Below are positions 5,119-20,629 of a DNA stretch of 34,453 bases, one piece after another (positions within the stretch are counted from its first letter, which is position 1; every line of letters starts with the position of its first letter). Both the position numbers and the translations under genes were made by a program. The notes below the pieces were generated by a model, which saw only the letters and a program-made list of their open reading frames with translations, searched no databases and was not told the origin of the DNA. This stretch comes from Sedimentisphaerales bacterium (GTDB lineage Bacteria > Planctomycetota > Phycisphaerae > Sedimentisphaerales > Anaerohalosphaeraceae): NCBI GenBank assembly GCA_016926155.1, contig JAFGPC010000143.1:1-34453 (forward strand), read 5' to 3'.

Positions 5119-6330
5119 ATGAAAAGTTTTGAATTCGAAGCGTGGGATCAGGCAGGCAATCGCCATGAGGGAGTCCGTCAGGCCAACAATGAGGATGACG
5201 TGATCAGCATGCTCCGCTCCCAGGGACTGACTCCGGTCTCCATTATCCCGATAGCCATGACAACACAGAAAAAACGCAGCAGCGTAAGATATAAGAAGGT
5301 CAAAGCGCAGGAATTATCGACTTTTTGTTGGCAGTTAGGCACAATGCTGGACGGGGGTTTGCCCATTACTACAGCCATTGAGACGATTGCGTCAGAAATG
5401 GAAAATCCTTATTTTGGGTGGATATTAAAAACCATCGCAATCGAATTGGAACGAGGAAGTTCATTATCCATCTGTGTCAATGATTTCCCAAAAGTGTTTA
5501 ACACCATGTCGCGAGCTATGATTCAGGCCGGCGAAAAAGGGGGTTCGCTGACCTCAACCCTCGAACGCCTGGCGGAGTACTACGACAACAAAGACAAACT
5601 GGCAAAAAAAGTACGCGGCGCCTTAGCCTATCCAATTTTTGTAATTGTCTTCATTGTTTTAATCATAGTGGCCCTGATGACCTTTATTATTCCTCGATTC
5701 ACCACGATGTTTGAAATGATGGAAGGAGAACTTCCCGCCTTTACGCGTGGTTTCATGTATGTTTATGAGACGATCCTGGCCAATCTGGCTTTTATCCTGA
5801 TCGGCATTATCGTTACCTTTATCGGTCTTACGGTGTATGGGAAAACCCGAAGCGGGCATCGAAGACTGTCTCAACTCGGAATGATTGTACCAATTTTTGG
5901 AAAAATCAAGATCCAGGCGTTTGTTTCCGTATTTTGCAAGACTCTTTCGACGTTGATTTCCTCCGGTGTACCCGTGCTTGAAGCATTTGAGATTCTGTCC
6001 AATTTAACAAACAACGATGTCCTGAAAACGGGCGTCCTTGAAACACGGGAAAAGCTGGTGGAAGGATCGAGTGTCTCGGACAGCATGGCGGCAAGTCGGT
6101 TTTTTCCGGACGTTGCGATTAAAATGACGCAAATCGGAGAGCAGAGTGGCTCCCTGTCCAGTGTACTGGAAAAAACAAGCCTGTATTACGAACGTAAGGT
6201 GGATACGGCCATATCCGCATTGCTCGGTTTAATGGAGCCGATTTTGATCGTCAGCGTCGGCGCCATCGTCCTTGTGGTCATTCTGGCAATGTATCTGCCT
6301 ATTTTCACAATGTCCGGTCCCGGAGGATAA
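5119..6330 (+). CDS. pilC: Type IV pilus/type II secretion inner-membrane platform protein (PilC/GspF)
   Basis: 403 residues, the usual length for PilC/GspF. The short N-terminal domain (about 1-50, ending SQGLTPVSIIPIA) is followed by two T2SSF repeats, about 70-195 and 270-395. Their paired signature is visible as FCWQLGTMLDGGLPITTAIETI and FCKTLSTLISSGVPVLEAFEIL, each followed by an IQAGEKGGSL or IGEQSGSL motif. Three membrane spans are seen near 170-192, 222-245 and 372-395. In the family this protein sits in the inner membrane, binds the assembly ATPase and helps move pilins into the filament. It opens the plus-strand cluster; the ATG at 5119 has AAGGA seven bases upstream. Its ATPase partner is encoded at 16520-18265 on the other strand. 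GspF is an equally valid name. Confidence 0.93.
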   Translation: MKSFEFEAWDQAGNRHEGVRQANNEDDVISMLRSQGLTPVSIIPIAMTTQKKRSSVRYKKVKAQELSTFCWQLGTMLDGGLPITTAIETIASEMENPYFGWILKTIAIELERGSSLSICVNDFPKVFNTMSRAMIQAGEKGGSLTSTLERLAEYYDNKDKLAKKVRGALAYPIFVIVFIVLIIVALMTFIIPRFTTMFEMMEGELPAFTRGFMYVYETILANLAFILIGIIVTFIGLTVYGKTRSGHRRLSQLGMIVPIFGKIKIQAFVSVFCKTLSTLISSGVPVLEAFEILSNLTNNDVLKTGVLETREKLVEGSSVSDSMAASRFFPDVAIKMTQIGEQSGSLSSVLEKTSLYYERKVDTAISALLGLMEPILIVSVGAIVLVVILAMYLPIFTMSGPGG

Positions 6331-6940: not shown

Positions 6941-7408
6941 ATGAAGATTATTCGCCGTCAGTATGCACATGCGGTCACACTGGTCGAGGTCATCGTAGCC
7001 TGTGTTGTTCTGGCCGTTGCCGTCTTGGGCGTGTTGAGCTATCAATATCACGCCACACGACGCACGATTGTGGCCAGAGACAAACTGACAGCAACACGAA
7101 CCTGTCGACTGCTGATGGAGGACTGGAAGAGTAACGGAGGTGACGAAAACTATGATCCGTCAGCTCTGGAACTTGGATTTGTTTCCACAGGCACAGCAGA
7201 CCGTTACAAAATTCGTGTCAATGATCTGCCCATGGTTGCAAGCCTCAGTTGGCAGGATGTCGACAAGGATGAGGATGCCGGAGTGACCCTGCGCGAGATT
7301 CGGGTTTTGCTGGAATGGAGACAGGACCGGCAGGATGATACGATCCGTACCCAGGATCCTGCGTTTGAAATGACAACGTATGTACGACGTGATCAGAGTG
7401 CCGGCTAA
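6941..7408 (+). CDS. Minor prepilin-like protein (PilV/GspI-like)
   Basis: 155 residues with an N-terminal prepilin-like segment, YAHA/VTLVEVIVACVVLAVAVLGVLSY. Glu+5 and the long hydrophobic helix are present, but the position before cleavage is Ala rather than Gly and +1 is Val rather than Phe or Met. The rest (about 35-155) is a charged globular domain with a RTCRLLMEDWKSNGG segment. Size, order and the VTLVEVI...VAVLGV pattern resemble PilV or GspI minor subunits. The ribosome-binding site is weak, which, with the palindrome upstream, suggests lower expression than the major pilin. It is followed by another minor prepilin gene 28 bases on. The minor-pilin role is inferred. Confidence 0.75.
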   Translation: MKIIRRQYAHAVTLVEVIVACVVLAVAVLGVLSYQYHATRRTIVARDKLTATRTCRLLMEDWKSNGGDENYDPSALELGFVSTGTADRYKIRVNDLPMVASLSWQDVDKDEDAGVTLREIRVLLEWRQDRQDDTIRTQDPAFEMTTYVRRDQSAG

Positions 7409-7436
7409 GCCTGTCAGGAACCATAAGGAGTAAAGA

Positions 7437-8102
7437 ATGAGAACTGCTGGGACAACACATTCCGGAGGATTTACTCTGGTGGAGTTGATCATCACGGTTG
7501 TCATTGCCGCCATCCCGATCTTCGCCATCGGAACGCTTCTGGTTGGGGCACAACAGGGCTGGCAGGACAGTTACAATTCCGTCCACAAGGAAATTCAGCA
7601 GGATGCTCTGGCTACAATGACGACCTTCGGAAATATCGGACGCAAATCGAATCGCAGCAACTATAAAGTGTACCGCATTATCCAGGGCGCCTTTATCGAA
7701 GCCACACCAGCATCAGGAGATACTTTGGCGACAGGGCAAGCAGTAGAGATGCACTACTGGGAAAACCCTCCCGCTTCGCTGGATCTGGATATGCTCGATA
7801 CCACGAATACGGGAACACACTTTGCCTTGTTCTATCTGGATGGCGATGAACTGAAAGTGGACCTTGGAGAGGTCGTGGATGGAATCGGCGCTGTCAATAA
7901 TGGATCGCGTACGGCATCGGATGTGGAAACACAAGTGCTGGCCCATAATGTGGACACCACCAATGACGAGATTTTCAGCCATACAGTAATTGGCGGCGAT
8001 GGTCAGGGATGTGTACGGCTGAACCTGAACCTTGAGGATGATGACGGACAGAGGGTTGAAGTTAAAACGGCCACTCTGCTTCGGATCGTTTGGCCTCAAT
8101 GA
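7437..8102 (+). CDS. Minor prepilin-like protein (PilW/GspJ-like)
   Basis: 221 residues. The prepilin site SGG/FTLVELIITVVIAAIPIFAIGTLLVG has Gly-1, Phe+1 and Glu+5, and a Pro in the hydrophobic helix. The following domain (about 45-221) has no named motif that I recognise; it includes QDALATMTTFGNIGRKSNRSNYKVY and a C-terminal strand KTATLLRIVWPQ, reminiscent of PilW/GspJ proteins in size and general pattern. AAGGAG (7425-7430) lies six bases before the ATG. Position between the PilV-like and PilX-like genes matches the fimT-pilVWX type of minor pilin cluster. It would join a priming or tip complex for the filament. Confidence 0.75.
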   Translation: MRTAGTTHSGGFTLVELIITVVIAAIPIFAIGTLLVGAQQGWQDSYNSVHKEIQQDALATMTTFGNIGRKSNRSNYKVYRIIQGAFIEATPASGDTLATGQAVEMHYWENPPASLDLDMLDTTNTGTHFALFYLDGDELKVDLGEVVDGIGAVNNGSRTASDVETQVLAHNVDTTNDEIFSHTVIGGDGQGCVRLNLNLEDDDGQRVEVKTATLLRIVWPQ

Positions 8103-8127
8103 TGTGTTCAAAAGGGAAGGATAAACG

Positions 8128-9864
8128 ATGAGCAAACCATGGCAACATCGCAAGGCACAGAAGCGGGGTTCCGTACTCGGTCTGGCCATGATTATGATCG
8201 CCATGCTCTCTATCCTGGGAGCAGGCCTGCTCATGGTTTCCTTCGGCGCCAGCCAGCAAACGGCCATGATTCAGAATGAAGCGGCGGCGATATCCGCCGC
8301 CGAGGCCGGATATGAAAAAGCGATCTTCTGGATGAGTAAGCAATCCGACATGCTCAGCGCGCTGCAGGAAGCGGAAGCATCAGGTACTCTGGATTTCGGA
8401 AATAGTTCGAGTAATTACCAAATCGACCTGCGGGCGTTTATCGGATCAAGTCCGGTCTATGAAATTACCTCTGTCGGCGCCAGCGGCCGCTTTACTCGCA
8501 CGATTAATGTCCAGATCATCCAGGCGGTCGGTGGCTGGTCGATGGGCATGTGTCGCGTTCCCAGCGGCGCTACAAGCACGTATCCGGTCAGTTATACCTC
8601 GGGAGAAATAATCGATATGCCGGTGCATATTAACAGTTATGCCGACCCTCAAGATACCGAGCGGGACATCAATTTATCCGGCGATCCGATATTTGTACGC
8701 TCGGTTTCCATGGGCGAGAGCCGATATTCCTCCGGGGGCTATGACAAGTACAAAAGTGTGATTAATTATTTTGACAACGGGATCTACTTCAATCAGCCCT
8801 CCAGCCGGATCACGGATTCCGAAACGGTGCAAAAGAAAGTGGACCGTTTCGTGGACAGCACAAAACCGCAGTACCGATACACTCCCGGGGGCGAGGCCAA
8901 GGTGAAAAACCCCCTGCCCGCCGTACATCTGGAATTTTTTGTTGATGGCGGAAAGGGAAAACTTCGGGTCACAAACAACTGCACGGTTCGAGGTTTTCGT
9001 CAAAGTAGTGACAGCCGGACATGGGATTTTAAAATCTATGAAAAGGATCCGTCGAAATTCGAACGATACTTCATCTATGGCTACCATCTGCGACCCAAGG
9101 AAGCCGACGCTGATGGAGACCGCTTTGTCATCGATCTTGAAGATACCTATGTAACGCAAAGTATAGCGGGCATTGAAACCGAGCCGGGCGGCCAGATCTA
9201 TATCGACGGCAATGTCATCATCGGCAGCGGAGACGAATCTCTGTCCGGCATACAGGATGTTGTCAAGGGACGAATCACTGTCGTTGCCTCCGGAAATATC
9301 TGGATCGCCGATTCCATAACCGTCGATGGAGACCATGAAGATAACGGATTACCCTCACAGGATAACACGAATGTACTTGGTCTGGTCGCCCAGGGCGTCA
9401 TCAAGGTCATCGATCCGGGAATGTCGGATTACAGCTATGTTGATGATAAACCCGACGGCTACGAAGAAGACGGCGATTACTCCAAGTACGATCATATCTA
9501 CGTCCCCATAGCTGAACGGGACAAGGGCTACCCGGAAGGAACCTATAAACGTCACTTGCCGGATCCGACGGTTCTCGAGGCCGCATTAACCGTCGGCGGC
9601 GGAGGTTGGGGAGCGGAAAATGTACAGCGAGGCTTCTACGGAGGACGCAAGGAAAGCGGAATACAGGACAAGCTGATTCTCCGGGGAACCATCGCCGAAT
9701 CCATGCGAGGCGTTGTCGGACTGGTCGACAGCGATGGTTATCTGAAATATTACTATATGGACGAACGGCTCCTGACGGGAATCTTGCCGGGCAATATCTG
9801 GCTTCGTGGGAAATATGTGCCTCTTCCTGCGGGCTGGCGGGATTATCGAGCCAGTAATGATTAA
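8128..9864 (+). CDS. Large PilX-like pilus assembly protein with a long extracellular domain
   Basis: 578 residues. The N-terminus has a basic stretch (HRKAQKRG), a membrane helix near 14-38 (SVLGLAMIMIAMLSILGAGLLM) and the PilX-type motif AAISAAEAGYEKAIFWM (about 54-70). There is no Glu at +5, as is common in PilX-like proteins. The remaining 500 residues are far longer than ordinary PilX (about 200). They include a strand-rich repeat (about 351-395, GGQIYIDGN... then GRITVVASGNIWIADSITVDGD) that resembles DUF4900-type modules found in PilX-like proteins. It has an AAGGGAAGGA ribosome-binding site. The protein may sit at the pilus tip and act as an adhesin or priming subunit; that role is inferred from position and size only. 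Confidence 0.72.
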   Translation: MSKPWQHRKAQKRGSVLGLAMIMIAMLSILGAGLLMVSFGASQQTAMIQNEAAAISAAEAGYEKAIFWMSKQSDMLSALQEAEASGTLDFGNSSSNYQIDLRAFIGSSPVYEITSVGASGRFTRTINVQIIQAVGGWSMGMCRVPSGATSTYPVSYTSGEIIDMPVHINSYADPQDTERDINLSGDPIFVRSVSMGESRYSSGGYDKYKSVINYFDNGIYFNQPSSRITDSETVQKKVDRFVDSTKPQYRYTPGGEAKVKNPLPAVHLEFFVDGGKGKLRVTNNCTVRGFRQSSDSRTWDFKIYEKDPSKFERYFIYGYHLRPKEADADGDRFVIDLEDTYVTQSIAGIETEPGGQIYIDGNVIIGSGDESLSGIQDVVKGRITVVASGNIWIADSITVDGDHEDNGLPSQDNTNVLGLVAQGVIKVIDPGMSDYSYVDDKPDGYEEDGDYSKYDHIYVPIAERDKGYPEGTYKRHLPDPTVLEAALTVGGGGWGAENVQRGFYGGRKESGIQDKLILRGTIAESMRGVVGLVDSDGYLKYYYMDERLLTGILPGNIWLRGKYVPLPAGWRDYRASND

Positions 9865-9890
9865 AACAGAATCGAAAATTGCGGTTGTTT

Positions 9891-10967
9891 ATGGTCAGTT
9901 ATAAGAAAAAAATGGGATTCAGAACAATACAGGTTGCCGGCCTGGATATTGGATCCGGTTCCGTTAAAGTAGTCCAGTTACTGAAGGAAGAACGCGGCTA
10001 TGTTGCAACCCATGCCGCGATTGTTCCTGTGACCGCTTCGGATCCGCAGGCAGGTCCTTCTGATGCAGATATCAAAAAAGTCATTGAAACCTGTCTTAAA
10101 AAAGCGAATGTCAGCCGCTTTACGGTGTGCGGCTTGTGCGGTCCCGAAGTGATGGTGCGCGGATTCAGTTTTCCGAACCTGCCCCCTGAAGCTGTGGCCC
10201 AGGCCGTCATGTTCGAAGCCCAGCAGGTTTGTCCTTTGGATATTAAAAACAGTGTTGTAGATTACCATCTGATAAGCAACACTTCCGTTTCAGAGGAGTC
10301 GGACAATAAGACAACAATCCTAAAAGGAATTTTTGTCGTAGGCACTAACGAAGCGGTTCAGCGGAAAAAGGGATTGGCCCACAGTGCTTCGTCAAAAGCA
10401 GTGTTAATGGATGTGGATGGACTGGCGCTTTTAAATTGCATCAGCCGATTCGAACAGCAATCTCCCGGCACAAGCATCGCCGCAATTAATGTAGGAAAAA
10501 CCTTCACAAACATTGCCATCCTGGGAGAGGACGGATTACCCTTCATACGAGACCTGCCCGAAGGCGTACATCAAATTATTGATCAGATTGCCGCCCGAAA
10601 TAATGTAAGTCCTACTATAGCGGAGCAATCCGTCTCGGATATGAAACTGGCTCGAGAAAACGGAATCGAAATCGACATCAGTCTTCGAGAGGTCTGCCGG
10701 GATCTGGTGGGAAGTATTTCCGACACGCTTCGGTATTATACTCTACAGGAAGGATCGGCTCCGATCTGCCGAATTTTACTTTGCGGCGGATTTGCGCTTG
10801 TTCCGGAATTTGTAGCCATGCTGGGCGACAGTCTTACGGAAGATGTCATCGTGTTCAATCCTTTCGCTGAAATTCCGTGGGTGGGCGACAGTGAAGGGCT
10901 TCAATGTGCACAGAAATATGGACCCGCGCTGGCCGTAGCGACCGGATTAGCTATGAGGGCCGTTTGA
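9891..10967 (+). CDS. pilM: Type IV pilus assembly protein PilM (actin-like cytoplasmic ATP-binding protein)
   Basis: 358 residues, close to PilM of other bacteria. The actin-fold phosphate-1 loop is seen as AGLDIGSGSVKVVQLL, followed by the PilM pattern MVRGFSFPNLPPEAVAQAVMFEAQQVCPLDI. A second loop, AAINVGKTFTNIAIL, has Asn where Asp is usual, then DLPEGVHQIIDQIA. ILLCGGFALVPEFVAML near the C-terminus is the late nucleotide-binding loop. PilM forms a cytoplasmic ring that binds the N-terminal tail of PilN and links the assembly ATPase to the alignment complex. The start is uncertain: ATG 9891 is used, but 9912 (MGFRTIQVAGLD) is possible and neither has a strong ribosome-binding site. PilN begins one base after its stop. 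Confidence 0.9.
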   Translation: MVSYKKKMGFRTIQVAGLDIGSGSVKVVQLLKEERGYVATHAAIVPVTASDPQAGPSDADIKKVIETCLKKANVSRFTVCGLCGPEVMVRGFSFPNLPPEAVAQAVMFEAQQVCPLDIKNSVVDYHLISNTSVSEESDNKTTILKGIFVVGTNEAVQRKKGLAHSASSKAVLMDVDGLALLNCISRFEQQSPGTSIAAINVGKTFTNIAILGEDGLPFIRDLPEGVHQIIDQIAARNNVSPTIAEQSVSDMKLARENGIEIDISLREVCRDLVGSISDTLRYYTLQEGSAPICRILLCGGFALVPEFVAMLGDSLTEDVIVFNPFAEIPWVGDSEGLQCAQKYGPALAVATGLAMRAV

Positions 10968-10968
10968 T

Positions 10969-11616
10969 ATGTTTACGATTGATCTTCTCAAAGGAAGTGG
11001 AGTTCCTCTTCACAGCAACCCGCTACGAACAGCGATGCGATCCATTCCCTTTATGATCCCGTTGTTTCTGATCGTCGCATTGACATCGCAATACCTGCAT
11101 AACAACACCCTCCTGGCGGTGGGTCGGTCTAACCTGGAAAATATGCAAATGCAGATTCTGCGATGCAGGGATGATATGACAGCATACGAACAATATATGC
11201 AACAAATCACACAAACCCGAAATCGATTGAGAGAAGTAGCCGGTGCTATCGATAGACATATTCAATGGTCGGATGTGATTCGCGCACTGAGTGAAAATCT
11301 TCCGGATCGTATAGCCATTCAACAACTGGATCTGAAACGCAGCGCCAGTCGCAAAAAGGTTTCCGACAAGGACAATCCTGAAAAGCTCCTGACACAAACT
11401 ATTATCAATCGGACTCTGTTGATTTGGGTGTACGGTCCCCAATCCACACAAACGGACAGGGCGGTTCAGGAATTTTTGCAGAAACTCCAATCTTCTTCGG
11501 TTCTCCTTCCGATGATCGAAGACATCCGAATCTCTTCGCGTTATGAGGAAGAAATCGATGAAACCGTCGTCGCTGTATACGAGATAGAGTGTCTATTCAA
11601 GACACAGGAGCCATAG
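10969..11616 (+). CDS. pilN: Type IV pilus alignment protein PilN-like
   Basis: 215 residues, bitopic. The cytoplasmic tail begins MFTIDLLKGSG, close to the INLLP motif that PilN uses to bind PilM. A membrane helix (about 29-44, IPFMIPLFLIVALTSQYL) and a coiled-coil-like stretch (LENMQMQILRCRDDMTAYEQYMQQITQTRNRL, cited as 56-87) follow. The periplasmic domain contains WSDVIRALSENLPDRIAIQQLDL, the typical PilN pattern, and a ferredoxin-like C-terminal half. The gene starts one base after pilM and is followed directly by the PilO-like gene, so the three are translationally coupled. It would form heterodimers with PilO in the inner membrane and connect PilM to the secretin through the PilP-like protein. 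Confidence 0.85.
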   Translation: MFTIDLLKGSGVPLHSNPLRTAMRSIPFMIPLFLIVALTSQYLHNNTLLAVGRSNLENMQMQILRCRDDMTAYEQYMQQITQTRNRLREVAGAIDRHIQWSDVIRALSENLPDRIAIQQLDLKRSASRKKVSDKDNPEKLLTQTIINRTLLIWVYGPQSTQTDRAVQEFLQKLQSSSVLLPMIEDIRISSRYEEEIDETVVAVYEIECLFKTQEP

Positions 11617-12198
11617 ATGCATTTGCATGGAAAATCCAGAACATATACGGTGGGGCTTCTGGTATATGGAGTTGTCAGTTTTGCGCTGCTTGCAGGAGGC
11701 TATTTCTTGACGATGCATCCACAAAAACAAAAACTGGATGCCCTGAAAATGCAGCTGTCGGAGACGAATGAACGCTTGAGTGAAATTCGCCAGGCGCGTT
11801 CGCCGCAAACCATGCAACGGCTTCAGGATCGCCTGGAAGGAATTCGTGATCGGCTAAGCGACTTTGTTGTCTCCCTTGATTCTGCCGCTACGCTCAATTT
11901 TCAAATCGGTCAGCTTGCCAATGAACTTGAGCTGCAGAATTTAACAAGCGAGCGTAAAGAAGGATTGTCTCAAAATGTGTTGGACGGATGTAAACATCTT
12001 GGTGAAGTGTGGCTTGAACTGGATTTTGAAACCAATTTCCCTCAATTTGCCGACTTCATCAATCTTCTCGAACGGAATCGTCCTATAGTATTTGTCGAAA
12101 AGTTTAAAATCGAACATAAGGCCCAGAACCCAAAAATTAAAGACGTGCAATTAACCCTTTGTTTCTTTATCGAATCCAAGGAAGTCGCAATCAAGTGA
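11617..12198 (+). CDS. pilO: Type IV pilus alignment protein PilO-like
   Basis: 193 residues. A short cytoplasmic tail and one membrane helix (about 10-31, TYTVGLLVYGVVSFALLAGGYF) are followed by a coiled-coil stretch (about 35-85, with MQLSETNERLSEIRQ) and a small domain containing ELDFETNFPQFADFINLLERN and VQLTLCFFIE, which matches the PilO ferredoxin-like fold. The ATG follows the PilN stop without any gap, and its own stop TGA overlaps the GTG start of the ParA gene by four bases. It should pair with PilN in the inner membrane. Sequence identity to known PilO is probably low; the call rests on architecture and gene order. Confidence 0.82.
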   Translation: MHLHGKSRTYTVGLLVYGVVSFALLAGGYFLTMHPQKQKLDALKMQLSETNERLSEIRQARSPQTMQRLQDRLEGIRDRLSDFVVSLDSAATLNFQIGQLANELELQNLTSERKEGLSQNVLDGCKHLGEVWLELDFETNFPQFADFINLLERNRPIVFVEKFKIEHKAQNPKIKDVQLTLCFFIESKEVAIK

Positions 12199-12992
12199 GA
12201 ATCATTTCCATTGCCAACCAGAAAGGTGGTTGCGGAAAAACAACCACAGCGGTAAACCTGGCCGCCGCACTGGCCCAGACCGGACAAAAGGTTGTCCTCA
12301 TTGATCTGGACCCGCAAGGCCATGCGACTCTCGCCTTTGGGTATGCACCGGACCATCTGGAGCAAACCATATACGATTCCCTGCGGAATCCGCGGATTTG
12401 TTTATATGACGTTATACAATCCACCAATGTAAAAGGGCTTGTACTGGCGCCAAGCAATATTCTGCTTTCCGGCCTTGAAACCGATATGGCATTTGTCCAT
12501 GAGCGGGAGTTTCTCCTGCTGCAATGTCTGAGAAGCCTGAGACGGGGATACGATACTTGTGTAATCGATTGTTCCCCATCATTAAATATTCTGACACTGA
12601 ATGCACTCGTCGCCAGCAGCGACGTAATTATTCCCGTTCAGACACATTACTACGCACTGGAAGGCCTACGACAGCTTCTTGAAACCATTGATGTCGTCAA
12701 TGAGAGATTCAATCCGCAACTGCGAATTGGCGGCGTTCTGTTAACCTTTGTTGAAGATCGAACTCATCTGAGCCGAGATGTGCAGCGGCAAATGAAAGAC
12801 TTCTTCGGTAACCTTGTTTTCCAAACGGTAATCCATCGTAATATCCGACTCGCTGAAGCTCCCAGTGCCGGGCAATCCTGTATAACGTATGATCCGGGCA
12901 GCAAAGGTGCTATAGAGTATCGCCAGTTGGCCAGAGAGATAGGTTATGAAACCCGAACCAGGACTACACAAGAAAGTATCGTCTATATTTGA
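12195..12992 (+). CDS. ParA/Soj-family ATPase inside the pilus operon
   Basis: 265 residues starting at GTG (VRIISIANQKGG), which overlaps the PilO stop by four bases. The deviant Walker A motif KGGCGKTTT with signature Lys10 is intact, as are the switch/Walker B strands VVLIDLDPQGHATL and DTCVIDCSPSLNILTLNAL, and the family pattern VQTHYYALEGLRQLLETI. The C-terminus (SKGAIEYRQLAREIGYE) is Soj-like; no MinD-type amphipathic membrane helix is visible. Such ATPases dimerise with ATP and place DNA or protein machines in the cell. There is no parB, parS or replication gene nearby, so chromosome or plasmid partition is unlikely. Its place between PilO and PilP-like genes suggests it positions or assembles the pilus machine. 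A longer start at 12159 would overlap pilO more and is rejected. Confidence 0.88.
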   Translation: MRIISIANQKGGCGKTTTAVNLAAALAQTGQKVVLIDLDPQGHATLAFGYAPDHLEQTIYDSLRNPRICLYDVIQSTNVKGLVLAPSNILLSGLETDMAFVHEREFLLLQCLRSLRRGYDTCVIDCSPSLNILTLNALVASSDVIIPVQTHYYALEGLRQLLETIDVVNERFNPQLRIGGVLLTFVEDRTHLSRDVQRQMKDFFGNLVFQTVIHRNIRLAEAPSAGQSCITYDPGSKGAIEYRQLAREIGYETRTRTTQESIVYI

Positions 12993-13782
12993 TGGTGTTA
13001 CGATCCCGGGACAGCCTTCGGATTCACCCCGGAATCCCTCTGATTCCGGACCGAACCAGGATCCGATCAACCACTCCGACGTGGCTGCCGCACAACCTTC
13101 ATCAACAGTTCCGACGCAAACCTCTTCCAATTCGGTTTCTTCCTTCTCCAAAGAAACAGAAATTGCCAAGACGACTGCAGAAACTGCTTTACCGAATACA
13201 CGTGTAAATGAAACCATCGGAAAAGAAAATACCACCCAAAAAGGTCCAGGCGAATCGATCCAACGGAAAAATCGAACGATTCGCAAGGAAACAACATGGT
13301 CAAAATTCGCAAAACGGGTAGGCATCGGGATATCGGATCCGGAAGAAGCCCGACAAAAAAAGATGGCAGCTCTTGTAAGTTTTTTGGCGGTTGTTTTTGT
13401 GAGTGTATTATTTTTTACATTGCGATCTCCCAAATCCACACAGGCCGCCATACAGACACAAGATGAGGAAAATATGCCTTCTACCACTTCCATGGAGATT
13501 GAGTGGACGCGCCCTACCGCTTTACCCACGGATTTACGGGATCCCATGATGTTTAATATCGCGCAAAGTATGGCTAACCAGACAGAGGAACAGATCATCG
13601 ATACGCAACTGTTCGATGTGACAGGAATTGTCCAGGGAGAGAGCGGGAATACGGCAATTGTATCCAATAAGATCGTCGCAGCAGGAGATATGATTTTGGG
13701 AGCACGTGTGCTGAAGATTAACCCGGATTCAGTGGAATTCGAAATCGAGGGGCAAAAATGGACCCAGCCGCTTCGAAAATAA
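12946..13782 (+). CDS. Bitopic PilP/GspC-like linker protein with a long cytoplasmic tail
   Basis: 278 residues. The start ATG lies inside the ParA gene (47-base overlap, different frame); no later in-frame start precedes the motif KKVSSIFDGV (9-18), so I keep it. Residues 20-115 are Pro/Ser/Thr-rich and look disordered. A basic segment (about 109-139) leads into one membrane helix (140-158, MAALVSFLAVVFVSVLFF), so the tail should be cytoplasmic. The C-terminal domain (221-275) has FDVTGIVQGESGNTAIVSNK, AGDMILGARVLKI and a final Val/Phe/Glu strand, the PilP or GspC homology-region pattern that binds secretin N-domains. True PilP is a lipoprotein without a long cytosolic part, so this is a hybrid layout. 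The secretin gene follows after 53 bases. Confidence 0.75.
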   Translation: MKPEPGLHKKVSSIFDGVTIPGQPSDSPRNPSDSGPNQDPINHSDVAAAQPSSTVPTQTSSNSVSSFSKETEIAKTTAETALPNTRVNETIGKENTTQKGPGESIQRKNRTIRKETTWSKFAKRVGIGISDPEEARQKKMAALVSFLAVVFVSVLFFTLRSPKSTQAAIQTQDEENMPSTTSMEIEWTRPTALPTDLRDPMMFNIAQSMANQTEEQIIDTQLFDVTGIVQGESGNTAIVSNKIVAAGDMILGARVLKINPDSVEFEIEGQKWTQPLRK

Positions 13783-13835
13783 AAGTGTGTTGTCGGCATC
13801 AAGCCGCTCATGGAAGAACGAGAAAGGATCGTCAA

Positions 13836-15296
13836 ATGCGCAATGATAAAGGAAATACGATTCGGATCTGGTTTTTATGCCTCTGTCTTATCTTACCCAG
13901 CCTCCGGACGGTTACCTATGGAGAAGACATCTCTCCCAGTTTGAGACAGGGAGAAATTATGACACCGGTCCAAAAACGGATGCAGCAGCGGATTAGCGTG
14001 GATTTTCGCGAGACGCCGATTGAAGATGTATTGCGCATCCTGGCTCGTCAGGCCGATGTGGATGTGGTCAAAAGCCCCAAAGTCAGCGGTTCCGTAACGG
14101 CAACATTGACGGAAATTCCCCTGGCCGAAGCTTTGAATAATATTCTCACGGCTCATGGGTACGGATATATCGCAACCGAAAACATGATCCGGGTGGTCCC
14201 CCAGGAAGACATTTTCGAAGCCCGTGAAAAGGTTGTGAGCCGGGTTTATCGCATTACCTATGCCGATGTCACGGAAGTGGAACTGGCGTTAAAGAAATTT
14301 ATCTCCCCTGCCGGCAGCATTTCCGCCAATCCGACAACGAGCAATATTATCGTAACAGATATGGAGAGTAAGGTTACTGCAATCGATGCATTTCTTCAGG
14401 AGATCGACCGGATCACGCCACAGATTATGGTGGAAGCCCGTATCTACGATATCTCTTCGACCAATCGAATGGATCTGGGAGTGGAGTGGAGCATAGGACG
14501 GAATACCAATTATGGAACGTCGGGAATCGGCAGCATCGGTGACAGCAGTACTCTGACCTCTGCAGGTAACCGCACGGATCCCCACATGACCGGTTTATTC
14601 TCCGGTGTGACCAGCAAGGCTACAGACACCGAAGGCCTTATTCGTTTTGGCTGGCTCAACAGCAGTATTGACATCGACGCTATTCTTCGCGCCAAACAGG
14701 AAGATATTCACGCCAAACTGCTGGCGAATCCGAGAGTCATGGTGATCGACAACGAAATGGCGACCATCAAGATAACCGAGGAAATCCCCTTCCAGGAACT
14801 CACCGAAACCAGTATGGGCGGCAGCATTGGGACAACTCGCTTCAAAGATGTCGGAGTGGAATTACTCGTTACGCCCCATTTGACGCGAGATAACATGATT
14901 CGTTTGAAGATTCATCCCAAATTCAGCGTCCGGACCGGCGATGTGGTCCTGCCGGGTGTAGCCAATTCCTCTCCCCAGCCGATCGTAGCCAAACGTGAAA
15001 CACAGACGACAACCCTGGTCAAAGACGGCCAGACCGTTGTCATCGGCGGGCTTCGTAGGCAGCAGATCTCCGAACAGACCAATAAAGTTCCGCTTCTGGG
15101 AGATATCCCACTGGTTGGAGAATTGTTCAAATTTCATGGGGAAAGCTCCGTGAATAGCGAGTTGGTCGTTTTCATCACGCCCTACTTGATTATCGAAAAC
15201 ACTCTTTCACCTCGTGAACAGGCAGTATTATCCGATACAACTTTTCCTATCCCTTCAAGTCCGAATGTGATAATCAAGGAAGAAGGCAATAAATAG
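13836..15296 (+). CDS. pilQ: Outer-membrane secretin (PilQ/GspD)
   Basis: 486 residues from the ATG at 13836, which has AGAAAGGA seven bases before it and begins a signal peptide (IWFLCLCLILPSL, cleavage probably near TYG/ED). Domains: STN (about 52-121, ISVDFRETPIEDVLRILARQ), one N1-like domain (about 135-195, ending ISANPTTSNIIVTD), and the secretin barrel (about 197-470). Barrel signatures include VEARIYDISSTNRMDLGVEW, LLANPRVMVIDNEMATI, VGVELLVTPHL, TLVKDGQTVVIGGL and PLLGDIPLVGELFK. With only one N1 domain it is short compared with GspD and many PilQ proteins, and no AMIN domains are seen. It forms the outer-membrane gate for the filament or secreted substrate. It is the last gene before an intrinsic terminator. 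Confidence 0.93.
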   Translation: MRNDKGNTIRIWFLCLCLILPSLRTVTYGEDISPSLRQGEIMTPVQKRMQQRISVDFRETPIEDVLRILARQADVDVVKSPKVSGSVTATLTEIPLAEALNNILTAHGYGYIATENMIRVVPQEDIFEAREKVVSRVYRITYADVTEVELALKKFISPAGSISANPTTSNIIVTDMESKVTAIDAFLQEIDRITPQIMVEARIYDISSTNRMDLGVEWSIGRNTNYGTSGIGSIGDSSTLTSAGNRTDPHMTGLFSGVTSKATDTEGLIRFGWLNSSIDIDAILRAKQEDIHAKLLANPRVMVIDNEMATIKITEEIPFQELTETSMGGSIGTTRFKDVGVELLVTPHLTRDNMIRLKIHPKFSVRTGDVVLPGVANSSPQPIVAKRETQTTTLVKDGQTVVIGGLRRQQISEQTNKVPLLGDIPLVGELFKFHGESSVNSELVVFITPYLIIENTLSPREQAVLSDTTFPIPSSPNVIIKEEGNK

Positions 15297-15528: not shown

Positions 15529-16476
15529 ATGGACACACAATCCAGGAAAGTCGTGGTAATCGGAACCGGTTCGGTTGGATGTAGTTATGTATATGCGCTC
15601 ATGCAGACAGGACTGGCCAATGAAATTATTCTGCTGGATCGTGACGAGGAGCGGCTTGAGGGGGAAGTTATGGATTTATCTCATGGCTTGCCCTTTACTC
15701 CGCCGGTACAAATCCGAGCTGGGTGTTACACCGATTGCCGCGATGCAAATCTTGTTGTAATTACCGCCGGCACCGGCCAGAAAAACGGAGAATCACGACT
15801 GGATCTGGTACAACGAAATGCCGCCATTGTTCGATCGATTTGTGATCAGGTCGGCGATCAGACCACGGAATGCATAATCGTGATCGTAACCAATCCAGTG
15901 GATATTCTGACGTATCTGGCCAATCGCCATCTCCAATGGCCTCGGGGCCGGATTATAGGCTCCGGAACGGTTTTGGATACGGCCCGCTTCCGCACCATGC
16001 TCAGCCGGCATTGCCAGGTAGATGCAAGAAATATACATGCATACATTCTGGGTGAGCATGGCGATAGCGAGATCGCTGCCTGGAGCATGGCCCATATCGC
16101 CGGTATGAACATCAATAAATATTGCCCGAAATGCCGCAAGTGTGATTATGAAAAGACGCATAACCAACTCGTAGAAGATGTTCGTGACTCGGCCTATCAC
16201 ATTATTGATTATAAAGGCGCTACGTATTATGGGATCGGTCTTTCCCTCGTAAGAATTACCGAAGCCATTCTTCGTAACGAGAACAGCGTATTGACTGTTT
16301 CCACCATGCTTGAGGGGGAATACGGCCTGGATGATATATGTTTAAGCGTTCCCTGTGTCATAGGTCGAAACGGCATAACATCCATTATTGAATCCAACCT
16401 GCCTCAGAAGGAAAAGAACGGATTGCAGGCTTCAGCAGATGTATTACGAAAAATCCTGGACCAGATAAAGACGTGA
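15529..16476 (+). CDS. ldh: L-lactate dehydrogenase (NAD-dependent)
   Basis: 315 residues, the normal length. The Rossmann motif GTGSVGCSYVYALM (about 12-25) binds NAD. Gln84 in GQKNGESRLDLVQRN is the residue that marks lactate dehydrogenase, where malate dehydrogenase has Arg; Arg90 follows in the mobile loop. TNPVDILTY, VLDTARFR (Asp150, Arg153) and GEHGDSE with catalytic His177 are all present. It would interconvert pyruvate and L-lactate in fermentation. Odd point: a CPKCRKC cluster (Cys199, 202, 205) in the loop after the catalytic region. GAAAGGA lies seven bases before the ATG. It stands alone between the pilus terminator and the convergent pilB gene, so it is probably a single-gene unit; no clear promoter was found. 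Confidence 0.93.
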   Translation: MDTQSRKVVVIGTGSVGCSYVYALMQTGLANEIILLDRDEERLEGEVMDLSHGLPFTPPVQIRAGCYTDCRDANLVVITAGTGQKNGESRLDLVQRNAAIVRSICDQVGDQTTECIIVIVTNPVDILTYLANRHLQWPRGRIIGSGTVLDTARFRTMLSRHCQVDARNIHAYILGEHGDSEIAAWSMAHIAGMNINKYCPKCRKCDYEKTHNQLVEDVRDSAYHIIDYKGATYYGIGLSLVRITEAILRNENSVLTVSTMLEGEYGLDDICLSVPCVIGRNGITSIIESNLPQKEKNGLQASADVLRKILDQIKT

Positions 16477-16519: not shown

Positions 16520-18265
16520 TCAATCTTCGGAAAATGTAACACGGAGCACTTCATCCGCTGAAGTTAAACCCTGCATCACCCGTCGTACTCCGCTGTCGCT
16601 TAGATTTCCATACCCCTTTTCGCGAGCCATGGCACGAATATCCACCTCTCCGGCTCCCTGTGCAATCCGATCCCGCATGTGACGATCTATAGGCAGAAAT
16701 TCAAAGATTGGCACCCGACCACTATATCCGACATTATTGCATTGACTGCAACCCTTGGCCTGATAAATCGTCGTATTCTTGACCTCTTTGGGATCGATAT
16801 GGAGCCGTCGTATAGTGTCCTCATCCAGTTCCATAGGTTCACGACAATGTTCACAAAGTTTACGAAGGAGCCGCTGTGCCAGGATTAGATTCAGGCTGGA
16901 TGCCAACAGATATGGCTCAAGACCCATATAAACAAGCCGGCTGATGGCACTGGGAGCATCATTGGTATGAAACGTGCTCAGGACCAGATGGCCTGTCAAT
17001 GAAGCCTTCATCGCGATTTCCATCGTTTCCTTGTCGCGAATTTCACCCAATAGAATTATATCCGGATCTTGACGCAGGATGGCGCGCAAACAGGAGGCAA
17101 AGGTCAGCTCAATCTCCGACTTAATCTGGGTTTGATTGATTCCACCCAGGCGGTATTCAACCGGATCCTCTACAGTTGTGATATTCTTCTTTGGATCTCG
17201 CAGATAATTCAACGCCGAATAAAGAGTGGTGCTTTTGCCGCTTCCGGTCGGCCCGGTCACAATAATAATGCCATGAGGTTGCTTCAAAATGTTTTTGAAT
17301 TGGTCCAGCAAATGTGGTTCAAAACCCATCTTGTCCAGATTGTGTTCCACGGCGCCGGCATCCAGAATACGCATGACCACCTTTTCGCCATAGATCGTCG
17401 GCAACGTGGAAACACGCACATCAATATCTCGACTGGCAGTCTTGATCTTGAATCGTCCATCCTGCGGAAGACGACGCTCTGCAATATTCATCTCCGAGAG
17501 AATTTTAATTCGCGCTACAACAGCCGACTGCATCTTCCGTGCAGGAGGAACCATATCCTGAAGCATGCCGTCCACCCGCATACGGATACTCGTACTCTTT
17601 TCCTGTGGCTCAATATGGATATCGCTGGCCCGGCTTTTAACGGCATGGCTGAGAAGCAGATCCACAAATCGAATGACCGGAGCATCTTCGGCTTCCGCAA
17701 TGGAACTGGTCTGTTCAAATTCCTCTTCATCCTCTTCCGTGCTGATCTCCAATTCGACCAGGTCTCGCAATTTTTGTTCCTGGACATCCGTGCCGTGATA
17801 AATTACCTCAATGGCTCGTTGAATATCTCGCGCTGTGGCAAGCATAGTGCGAACCGGTCGTTTTAATTTCACAGTAATTGTGTCAATAGCGACAACATTC
17901 AGCGGATCGGCGATGGCAACCAGAACCTTTCCCTGGTCTTCACCGATCGCTACCAGACAGAAGCGGGTGGCGATGGTCTCCGGAATTTGGCGGGCGATCG
18001 GAATATTGATCGTCGATACATCCTCAATCGCAATCGTCTCAATCCTCAGATACTCTCCAAGGGCCGTCGTCACTTCCCGCTCGGTGAGCGTCTCAAGCCG
18101 AACCAGCACTTCACCCAACCGTCCTCCGGTTTTCGCTTGTTCGACGAGTGCAGCATGTAATTTTTCCGGGGAAAGTCTCTGGTTGGCGACCAGCCAATCG
18201 CCAAACAGCGCTCCTTCCTTCACCCTGCCGGCGCTTGTTCTTAAATTTTGTGGTGTTTCCGTCAT
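16520..18265 (-). CDS. pilB: Type IV pilus/type II secretion assembly ATPase (PilB/GspE)
   Basis: 581 residues, the usual size. The N-terminal MshEN/GspE-N domain spans about 20-160. Residues 171-192 are very acidic (STEEDEEEFEQ). The ATPase core has Walker A GPTGSGKST (338-346), the Asp box TTVEDPVEYRLGGINQTQ (363-380), Walker B IILLGEIRD (403-411) and the His box LSTFHTNDAPSAISRL. A tetracysteine metal site is intact: CEHC (471-474) and CSQC (506-509), which separates GspE/PilB extension enzymes from PilT. It powers filament extension with the PilC-like platform protein at 5119-6330. It lies 45 bases after the stop of the hybrid kinase-like gene and is probably cotranscribed. No strong ribosome-binding site precedes the ATG at 18265. 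Confidence 0.95.
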   Translation of the reverse strand: MTETPQNLRTSAGRVKEGALFGDWLVANQRLSPEKLHAALVEQAKTGGRLGEVLVRLETLTEREVTTALGEYLRIETIAIEDVSTINIPIARQIPETIATRFCLVAIGEDQGKVLVAIADPLNVVAIDTITVKLKRPVRTMLATARDIQRAIEVIYHGTDVQEQKLRDLVELEISTEEDEEEFEQTSSIAEAEDAPVIRFVDLLLSHAVKSRASDIHIEPQEKSTSIRMRVDGMLQDMVPPARKMQSAVVARIKILSEMNIAERRLPQDGRFKIKTASRDIDVRVSTLPTIYGEKVVMRILDAGAVEHNLDKMGFEPHLLDQFKNILKQPHGIIIVTGPTGSGKSTTLYSALNYLRDPKKNITTVEDPVEYRLGGINQTQIKSEIELTFASCLRAILRQDPDIILLGEIRDKETMEIAMKASLTGHLVLSTFHTNDAPSAISRLVYMGLEPYLLASSLNLILAQRLLRKLCEHCREPMELDEDTIRRLHIDPKEVKNTTIYQAKGCSQCNNVGYSGRVPIFEFLPIDRHMRDRIAQGAGEVDIRAMAREKGYGNLSDSGVRRVMQGLTSADEVLRVTFSED

Positions 18266-18310: not shown

Positions 18311-19582
18311 TTATTTTGTTGCTTTAACGTCCGAACCAACAGGTTCTGTATCCACCGCAGGTAAAAATTTGCTTATCATTCGATACAAGCTTCGACTGTC
18401 AACCGGCTTGGCCATGAAATCGTCAAAATTCGGATCCGCCTGTATACCGGCGGCGGAAAGGGCTATGATCGGACAAACAAGTCCTTTCTCTCGCATGACA
18501 CGCACGGCTTCATTACCATCCATACGAGGCATTTTTATATCCATCAGGATCAGGTCATACGGCTCATTGGAAATCTTTTCCACGGCCTGAATACCGTCAT
18601 CTGCAACGGAGACTTCCAATCCCATTGCTTCCAGAAGAAGGCTTATCACGGTCTGATTGGAAGGCTGATCTTCAACAAGAAGAATTCTCCCATGGCATCT
18701 TCCAATCCGCGAATCCTTCGTTTTTTCTTCCGGACTCTCTTGTCTAATAACTGGCTCCATAACTCTATTTTCAGGAATGGCTCCTACGGGAATGACGAGA
18801 GTAAAAACGCTGCCCTGGCCGACCTGACTGGACACACCGATTCTCCCCCCCAGCAATCGAACCAACTGATTGGCCACGGCCAGACCGCTATTGACCACCA
18901 GGCCATGACTGAGACTGGCCAGAATACTCTGATTAGCCTCATCACGGCCGGCATACGGTTCAAAAATTGCGGCTACCTTTTCTTCCGGAATCCCTACACC
19001 GCTGTCCTCCACATCAAAACGAATATAGAATTGCCCTTGTGTTTCTTCCATACCGATCCGCATCCTGACATGACCGGAGTCGGTAAATTTAATGGCATTG
19101 CCGGTCAGGTTAATCAAGCATTGCCGTAACCGTATCGGATCGGTTCGAATATTACCGGGAAGCTGACTGATAAGTTCAATTCGAAAATCCAGTCCTTTTT
19201 CCATGGCGGAAGGAACCATCAAAGACTCAATCTCCTCCAGAATTGGACCGAGCGAACAATCCGTTTTTTCGATCCGGAGCTGTCCGCTTTCTATTTTCGA
19301 AAGGTCCAGCACATCATTCACCAAAGCCGCCAGACCTTGCCCGGAGTTGAATATTTCGATCACATATTCCCGCTGTGAGTCGGTCAGTTCTTCTTGTCGG
19401 AGTAAATCACTAAAACCCACGATCGCATTGGTAAGAGTACGAATCTGATACGCCATATTATCTATGAACCGACTCTTCGATTCAATGATTGCATCCTTTT
19501 CTTCGCTGGTCTGTACTTCTCCCGGTTTTTGTACGCCCGGAAGTGGAGAAAGCAAAATTTCTTCGACACTCTTTAGCTGCAT
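18311..19582 (-). CDS. Hybrid histidine kinase-like protein with degenerate H-box and intact receiver domain
   Basis: 423 residues from the ATG at 19582, with AGGAG upstream; no membrane segment, so cytoplasmic. A HisKA-like dimerisation domain (about 30-100) contains MAYQIRTL where MSHEIRTP is normal: the phospho-accepting His is Tyr45 (codon at 19450-19448), the next Glu is Gln and the Pro is Leu. The ATPase domain keeps the N-box (LINLTGNAIKFT) and G1 box (VEDSGVGIP), but the G2 lid is altered (VNSGLAVANQL instead of GTGLGLAI). The C-terminal receiver (298-410) is intact, with acidic pair Glu304/Asp305, phospho-acceptor Asp348 in LILMDIKMPRMDG, Ser376 and Lys392. It probably does not autophosphorylate on His. 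It could act as a receiver-gated regulator or scaffold for another kinase. It lies directly upstream of pilB. Confidence 0.85.
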   Translation of the reverse strand: MQLKSVEEILLSPLPGVQKPGEVQTSEEKDAIIESKSRFIDNMAYQIRTLTNAIVGFSDLLRQEELTDSQREYVIEIFNSGQGLAALVNDVLDLSKIESGQLRIEKTDCSLGPILEEIESLMVPSAMEKGLDFRIELISQLPGNIRTDPIRLRQCLINLTGNAIKFTDSGHVRMRIGMEETQGQFYIRFDVEDSGVGIPEEKVAAIFEPYAGRDEANQSILASLSHGLVVNSGLAVANQLVRLLGGRIGVSSQVGQGSVFTLVIPVGAIPENRVMEPVIRQESPEEKTKDSRIGRCHGRILLVEDQPSNQTVISLLLEAMGLEVSVADDGIQAVEKISNEPYDLILMDIKMPRMDGNEAVRVMREKGLVCPIIALSAAGIQADPNFDDFMAKPVDSRSLYRMISKFLPAVDTEPVGSDVKATK

Positions 19583-19712
19583 TATAATACTCCTGTCATC
19601 TTTGCATCGCCACCCATGCACTCTACATCCAGACCAAAGGCGATGGCTACTATGCACTGTACTCTCTGTTTCGGTGATTTAGCAAAGCAACTTTTCTTCG
19701 AAACAGGAAAGG

Positions 19713-19798: not shown

Positions 19799-20629
19799 AT
19801 GATACAGCCTTTGCACGAAACAATGGGAATTGTATTTCTTACCGGAATCGGTATCTTTACCGGACGTATTCTCTGGAATAAACCAAAGTATTGGATTCTG
19901 GGATACATCTTACCTCTCGCGATTCTGGCTTTCCTTCTGGCCGGAAGAATTTCTTTTTTATCGGACCTGCTTCCCGTTCTCCATAGAATTAGTATGAGTC
20001 GGATGCGATATGTATTTCTTACCCTCGCAATCACGATCGGCCTGATGACTCCCTTACCACGATTACCTCACCGTTTCGAGAAAGTTCTCCTTTCTTTTGT
20101 CCTTCTGGCGTTTGTGGGCTATTTCTGCATCCTGCCCTTTTTATACCCCGTATTGCTTGAACGCCGGCTTCACAATATGAATCCAAGGATTGATGTGGAT
20201 GGCATCTGTCGTCAAAGCCAAGGATATACATGTGGTCCCGCTGCCGCCGCGACCGCTCTTCGCATCATGGGATATCCCGCTACCGAAGCGGAATTGGCTG
20301 TCCTGGGGCGAAGCAGCCCCATTACTGGTACGCTCGCACAAACCCTTTCCCGGGTGATCGATATAAAATATACAGACCAGGGTTTACAGTGCAATTATGA
20401 GCATTTGGGAACCATCGAACAATTAGCCAGGCGCGGAATTGCTCTGGTTGTTTTACGGGAAGGGCTTTTAATCGATCACTGTGTCACTGTACTTCAAGTC
20501 AACGACTCACAGGTGGTACTCGCCGATCCGGAACGCGGGATTAATATTCTATCCCACGCCGATTTTTATCGGTCCTGGAAGGGGTGGGCCATTACATTCC
20601 GTTCCACAGAATCACTCCGGCCGATCTAA
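19799..20629 (+). CDS. Membrane-anchored C39-like cysteine peptidase
   Basis: 276 residues. The first 120 hold three to four membrane segments (about 10-22, 31-49, 70-84, 96-119). The C-terminal domain (about 130-270) has the papain-like C39 pattern: Gln139 and Cys145 in RQSQGYTCGPAAAATALRIMG, His227 in LIDHCVTVLQV and Asp243 in VLADPERG, so the Gln-Cys-His-Asp set is complete. Peptidases of this fold remove double-Gly leader peptides or cut other small exported proteins. Here no ABC domain is fused and no bacteriocin or leader-peptide gene is next to it, so the substrate is unknown. Which side of the membrane the catalytic domain faces is not certain. It is divergent from the kinase-pilB pair and has its own likely promoter. 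Confidence 0.78.
   Translation: MIQPLHETMGIVFLTGIGIFTGRILWNKPKYWILGYILPLAILAFLLAGRISFLSDLLPVLHRISMSRMRYVFLTLAITIGLMTPLPRLPHRFEKVLLSFVLLAFVGYFCILPFLYPVLLERRLHNMNPRIDVDGICRQSQGYTCGPAAAATALRIMGYPATEAELAVLGRSSPITGTLAQTLSRVIDIKYTDQGLQCNYEHLGTIEQLARRGIALVVLREGLLIDHCVTVLQVNDSQVVLADPERGINILSHADFYRSWKGWAITFRSTESLRPI

Follow-up and report, generated by a model that had tools for sequence, protein, structure and literature searches.

The gene that runs along the minus strand upstream of a pilus ATPase gene in the DNA analysed here (the window, 34,453 nucleotides in full) encodes a hybrid histidine-kinase homologue that, on the residues it has lost, is very probably unable to autophosphorylate; the loss is fixed throughout a family of related proteins, and in most relatives whose flanking sequence is long enough the gene is the first of a co-directional run of about 12 pilus genes. 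Its tie to the pilus machine is well supported, and the protein is probably a non-enzymatic regulator of that machine. We would put at an even chance the fuller reading, that this catalytically dead kinase acts in the cytosol as a regulator or adaptor dedicated to the T4P/T2SS-like machine whose operon it leads.

The open reading frame begins with an ATG at 19582 and stops at 18311, as the sequence-only reading had placed it, and an alternative GTG start at 19657 is also open. By profile the protein is a histidine kinase, since it matches HisKA (Pfam cut-off, 26.9 bits) and, above the Pfam cut-off, HATPase_c (80 bits), but it lacks both the histidine with its acidic neighbour and the GxGLGL of the G2 box. 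The H-box is FIDNMAYQIRTLTNA (NMAYQIRTL), in which Tyr45 replaces the histidine, Gln46 the acidic residue and Leu50 the proline, and the G2 region is SHGLVVNSGLAVANQ where GTGLGLAI is expected. The G1 box (DSGVGIP), the N-box (NLTGNAIKFT) and Asp348 are all intact, and the receiver has the acidic pair, phospho-Asp, Ser/Thr and Lys that characterise Response_reg domains. The sequence-only reading had described this same combination of a threefold altered H-box, an altered G2 motif and an otherwise intact N-box, G1 box and receiver, and it is confirmed at each point. A Pfam search of the 423 residues found no sensor domain, and no PAS match. The receiver of the window's subclade (L001-L004) has an alpha-4 region (18374-18460) about six residues shorter than that of the other family members.

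Table 1. Features of the pseudokinase gene and of the pilus/secretion-like genes around it, in window coordinates
Feature	Position	Strand	Basis
Hybrid histidine-kinase homologue, kinase-dead (pseudokinase), 423 aa	18311-19582	-	ORF, Pfam and family alignment
HisKA/DHp domain, residues 35-100	19283-19480	-	Pfam HisKA, 49 bits; predicted helices 26-62 and 68-98
Altered H-box MAYQIRTLT	19430-19456	-	Tyr45 codon at 19450-19448; Gln46 and Leu50 at the acidic and Pro positions
HATPase_c/CA domain, residues 147-266; G1 box kept, G2 box lost	18785-19144	-	Pfam and alignment
Remodelled ATP-lid region, residues 212-244, carrying the six-residue insertion characteristic of gspE-linked members	18851-18949	-	Alignment; low-confidence helix 213-225 in the model
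Receiver, residues 300-403: Glu304, Asp305, Asp348, Ser376, Phe389, Lys392	18374-18685	-	Pfam Response_reg, 75 bits; conserved in 22/22
GspE/PilB-type secretion or pilus-extension ATPase (MshEN and T2SSE)	16520-18265	-	Pfam; adjacent in 21 family genomes
L-lactate dehydrogenase gene, between the halves of the split operon	15529-16476		
PilC/GspF inner-membrane platform	5119-6330	+	Pfam and NCBIfam
Minor pilin-like genes (pilV-like, pilW-like, pilX-like)	6941-9864	+	pilW-like and pilX-like by position and N-terminal segment only
pilM, pilN-like, pilO/gspM-like	9879-12198	+	Profiles; pilN-like by position
ParA-type ATPase between pilO and the pilP-like gene	12159-12992	+	AAA_31, 196 bits; same place in relatives' operons
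pilP-like gene and PilQ/GspD secretin	12946-15296	+	Profiles; pilP-like by position

Searches of related genomes recovered homologues of about 40-69% identity that directly precede the orthologous ATPase gene, and such a gspE-adjacent pseudokinase is present in 21 genomes of the same family, the window's included. We counted residues site by site in an alignment of 22 family members, from Phycisphaerae/Sedimentisphaerales MAGs (the named copies also include other Planctomycetota), against 28 canonical hybrid kinases. At the histidine position the family has Tyr in 19 proteins and Phe in three, whereas the canonical set has His in all 28; at H+1 there are 21 Gln and one His against 28 Glu; and the proline position is Leu in all 22 against Pro in all 28. 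The sequence-only reading had called the protein a pseudokinase and proposed examining Tyr45 in homologues beside pilB, where relatives keeping His would have told against it; the residue is always Tyr or Phe, no relative among the 22 keeps His, and the pseudokinase reading is strongly supported. Judged from these aligned sequences the replacement is far beyond chance (22/22 against 0/28), and HisKA domains without the histidine make up about 0.9% of the total (PMC12632262). Within the window's own genome, each of the 10 nearest other kinases that were checked keeps its histidine. A DNA pattern permitting any residue at the histidine position matched 17 of the 161 genomes of the order, each having Tyr or Phe and each belonging to a single family; a shorter, strict pattern that required Tyr or Phe matched 11 of the 397 genomes of the class, all of them in the pseudokinase-bearing family (f1), with no match outside it.

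None of the 21 gspE-linked members retains GTGLGL, and the six-residue insertion in the lid is common to nearly all of them. In the receiver Glu304, Asp305, Asn309, Asp348, Pro352, Ser376, Lys392 and Pro393 are each invariant (22/22), as is Phe389 at the aromatic switch position, which is variable in canonical hybrids. Loss of the histidine together with its acidic neighbour makes autophosphorylation very unlikely, given that replacing the acidic H+1 residue with Gln is sufficient by itself to abolish the kinase activity of CrdS (PMC3510030). That the protein might instead phosphorylate its tyrosine, or autophosphorylate at another histidine, is very improbable: Tyr is found in 19 of the 22, and DivL was formerly taken for a tyrosine kinase (in the title of PDB entry 4q20), but the other three members have Phe, which is not phosphorylatable, the family alignment has no column with a conserved substitute histidine, and both the acidic H+1 residue and the G2 box are gone.

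A different enzymatic reading starts from Thr49 (H+4), which is retained in all 22 members while the histidine, the acidic residue and the proline have all been replaced. In HisKA proteins the acidic residue is needed only for the kinase reaction, an E to Q change leaving full phosphatase activity, and the T/N position is needed only for the phosphatase (PMC3510030); the histidine is not essential for that activity, although it contributes (PMC12632262). The protein could therefore be a phosphatase-only member that drains phosphate from a pilus-control pathway through the retained threonine, acting on its own receiver or on that of another regulator. We regard this as unlikely. The threonine is equally conserved in canonical kinases (27 of 28, the other having Asn), making it weak evidence, the ATP lid is remodelled, and DivL, the best studied case of Tyr for His, has no phosphatase activity (PMC4211667).

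Low rates of non-synonymous change show that the 'dead' domain is being maintained. In the four closer pairs dN/dS is 0.08-0.16 for the whole gene and 0.013-0.114 for the DHp domain; in three distant pairs synonymous sites are saturated or nearly so, and only pN/pS or a rough ratio is possible. The DHp has the lowest pN of the three domains in five of seven pairs, the receiver being lower in the other two. The pseudokinase family is thus under purifying selection, its DHp included, and, as a histidine kinase homologue under selection that lacks residues required for at least one histidine kinase activity, it belongs to the class of pseudo-histidine kinases. Because the replacement is both fixed and under selection, the surface of the former H-box would appear to have acquired a new role.

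These data also rule out a local mutation, a sequencing error or a decaying pseudogene, to which we attach a negligible probability. Decay does occur at this place in the genome, in the form of two far more degraded kinase-like proteins without receivers that directly precede the gspE orthologue in G038 and G003 (L065:1783-2619 and L066:1658-2482). G038 belongs to another family than the window's genome, and its remnant has no significant Pfam match and is taken as homologous from its position and a weak BLAST hit. Against such an explanation for the pseudokinase itself, the same substitutions are found in 22 distinct sequences with full-length open frames and a dN/dS well below 1.

In a phylogenetic tree, the family and the decayed copies form one clade against canonical hybrid kinases, with branch support of 96/97, although the placement of two long-branched copies is uncertain. 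One member, L082 (CP070830; L082:5917-7221), has the H-box MAFQIRTL but is alone among the 22 in keeping PGLGL, is without the lid insertion, and has no ATPase (gspE) gene near it. It is likely to be an evolutionary intermediate, and its altered H-box beside a retained PGLGL points to change in the H-box first and in the lid later, an order taken from this one sequence. A stand-alone receiver gene (7383-7868) follows this family member.

The sequence-only reading had also placed the gene next to pilB. The neighbour, on the same strand after a gap of 45 bp, is indeed a GspE/PilB-type ATPase gene, but its product scores 615 bits against the 676 of the curated NCBIfam cut-off for PilB and 612 against 630 for GspE; since it falls just under both, we call the machine 'pilus/secretion-like' and do not retain the name pilB without qualification. 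The tie to the pilus has proved stronger than was first claimed, the gene heading a complete pilus/secretion operon in most relatives, among them G144, G027, G011, G021, G012, G032, G029, G030 and G024. The order in these relatives is pseudokinase, gspE/pilB, pilC/gspF, pilV/W/X-like, pilM, pilN, pilO, parA, pilP-like and secretin. In the window's clade the operon has been split; in the window itself its genes lie between 5119 and 19582, the pseudokinase and gspE being encoded on the minus strand and the other genes on the plus strand. The gspE orthologue occurs with no pseudokinase upstream in sister families and in a few genomes of the same family, so that the machine can run without it and the pseudokinase is an accessory part. 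Other regulators precede the gspE orthologue in a sister family (L054:769-2676 and L052:665-2416), either a STAS protein with a SpoIIE-type phosphatase or a receiver-PAS-sigma54 activator.

The ATPase has an imperfect MshEN c-di-GMP motif (18053-18208), the first RLG being LFG and the last Gln missing, and passes the NCBIfam cut-off for the c-di-GMP domain despite this. We considered whether the pseudokinase has replaced c-di-GMP control of the ATPase and rejected the idea, both on account of that score and because the motif is equally imperfect in relatives without a pseudokinase, where the first RLG is LFG or similar.

We propose that a regulator of this kind could work as follows. Its receiver would obtain phosphate in trans, from either an HPt protein or a canonical kinase; the window's genome encodes three HPt domains, which are candidate sources of the phosphate. 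With Asp348 phosphorylated, the DHp/CA dimer would adopt another conformation, and the fixed, constrained surface that it presents where the H-box used to be would engage a component of the machine. The simplest candidate for this partner is the GspE/PilB ATPase encoded next door, and by binding its partner the dimer would tune pilus assembly. That the receiver is phosphorylated, which protein is the partner and in which direction the effect runs are all inferred, and the same is true of a receiver switch on the motor ATPase and of the switch for pilus assembly that the sequence-only reading proposed; operon position is linkage, and is not proof of ATPase binding. A precedent is DivL, a Tyr-for-His protein that has neither kinase nor phosphatase activity and has become a sensor of a receiver in its phosphorylated state (PMC4211667). 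As the pseudokinase carries a receiver in the same chain, an intramolecular version of this sensing is, by analogy, possible. A bolder form of our proposal, which we advance only tentatively, is that these are lineage-specific, receiver-controlled pseudokinases that bind the motor ATPase directly, switching the machine post-translationally and not through transcription, and that their ATP lid has been remade into an element for binding protein.

An AlphaFold2 model of the pseudokinase (mean pLDDT 79.6) has an intact DHp hairpin, a CA domain and a receiver; its lid region is poorly predicted (pLDDT about 50). The close solved folds are ShkA, GacS, HK853, RetS and DivL, and the fold matches include 7n0e, a complex of RetS with GacS. 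The intact DHp and the proximity of RetS, along with at least eight close canonical paralogues in the same genome, raise the alternative that the protein is a dominant partner that heterodimerises with, or titrates, a canonical hybrid kinase, and so acts on gene expression and not on the motor. We think this unlikely: the gene is tightly linked to pilus structural genes in an operon, which favours a target in the machine, and no specific kinase partner was found nearby.

Several characterised proteins share parts of this structure. DivL from Caulobacter also has a conserved tyrosine (Tyr550) in place of the histidine on a HisKA/HATPase core and is kinase-dead, and PDB 4q20 matches the pseudokinase by sequence and fold; however, DivL has N-terminal PAS domains, no receiver, and a retained proline and G2 box (PMC4211667), and it regulates cell fate and is not encoded in a pilus operon. 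Caulobacter CCNA_03265 is a hybrid kinase without the conserved histidine that keeps the receiver Asp and affects motility (PMC11481889), but only this one protein is involved, mentioned there in passing; a nearby histidine may serve as a substitute, and no conserved pilus-operon family is described. ShkA has the same short, soluble and sensorless DHp-CA-receiver layout, and 6qrj is the best PDB match by sequence and fold, but it is active as a kinase and carries an additional pseudo-receiver that binds c-di-GMP (PMC7010744). RetS from Pseudomonas is comparable as a kinase-fold protein, close in fold, that acts by binding another kinase, but it is without pilus-operon linkage. RetS is, moreover, a membrane receptor. 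Subfamily II ethylene receptors of plants have a degenerate histidine kinase domain, some with a retained receiver, but these are membrane hormone receptors in an unrelated context.

Pseudo-histidine kinases are already known, as is one hybrid kinase without the histidine but with the Asp (PMC11481889), and few bacterial examples have been studied so far. We found no description in the open-licence literature of a conserved pseudokinase family that heads a pilus operon and has a remodelled ATP lid, and nothing there on pilus regulation by such a pseudokinase in Planctomycetota. The fixed Y/F-Q-I-R-T-L replacement, the intact receiver and the constant place at the operon head together mean that the target can be sought directly, and if the receiver does act on the motor, this would be direct phospho-control of pilus assembly in Planctomycetota. 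On its other side the pseudokinase gene is adjoined by a divergent gene (19799-20629) that encodes a C39-peptidase-like domain with apparent membrane segments and is kept beside the pseudokinase gene in L079, L080 and L081; its product may function in peptide processing or export.
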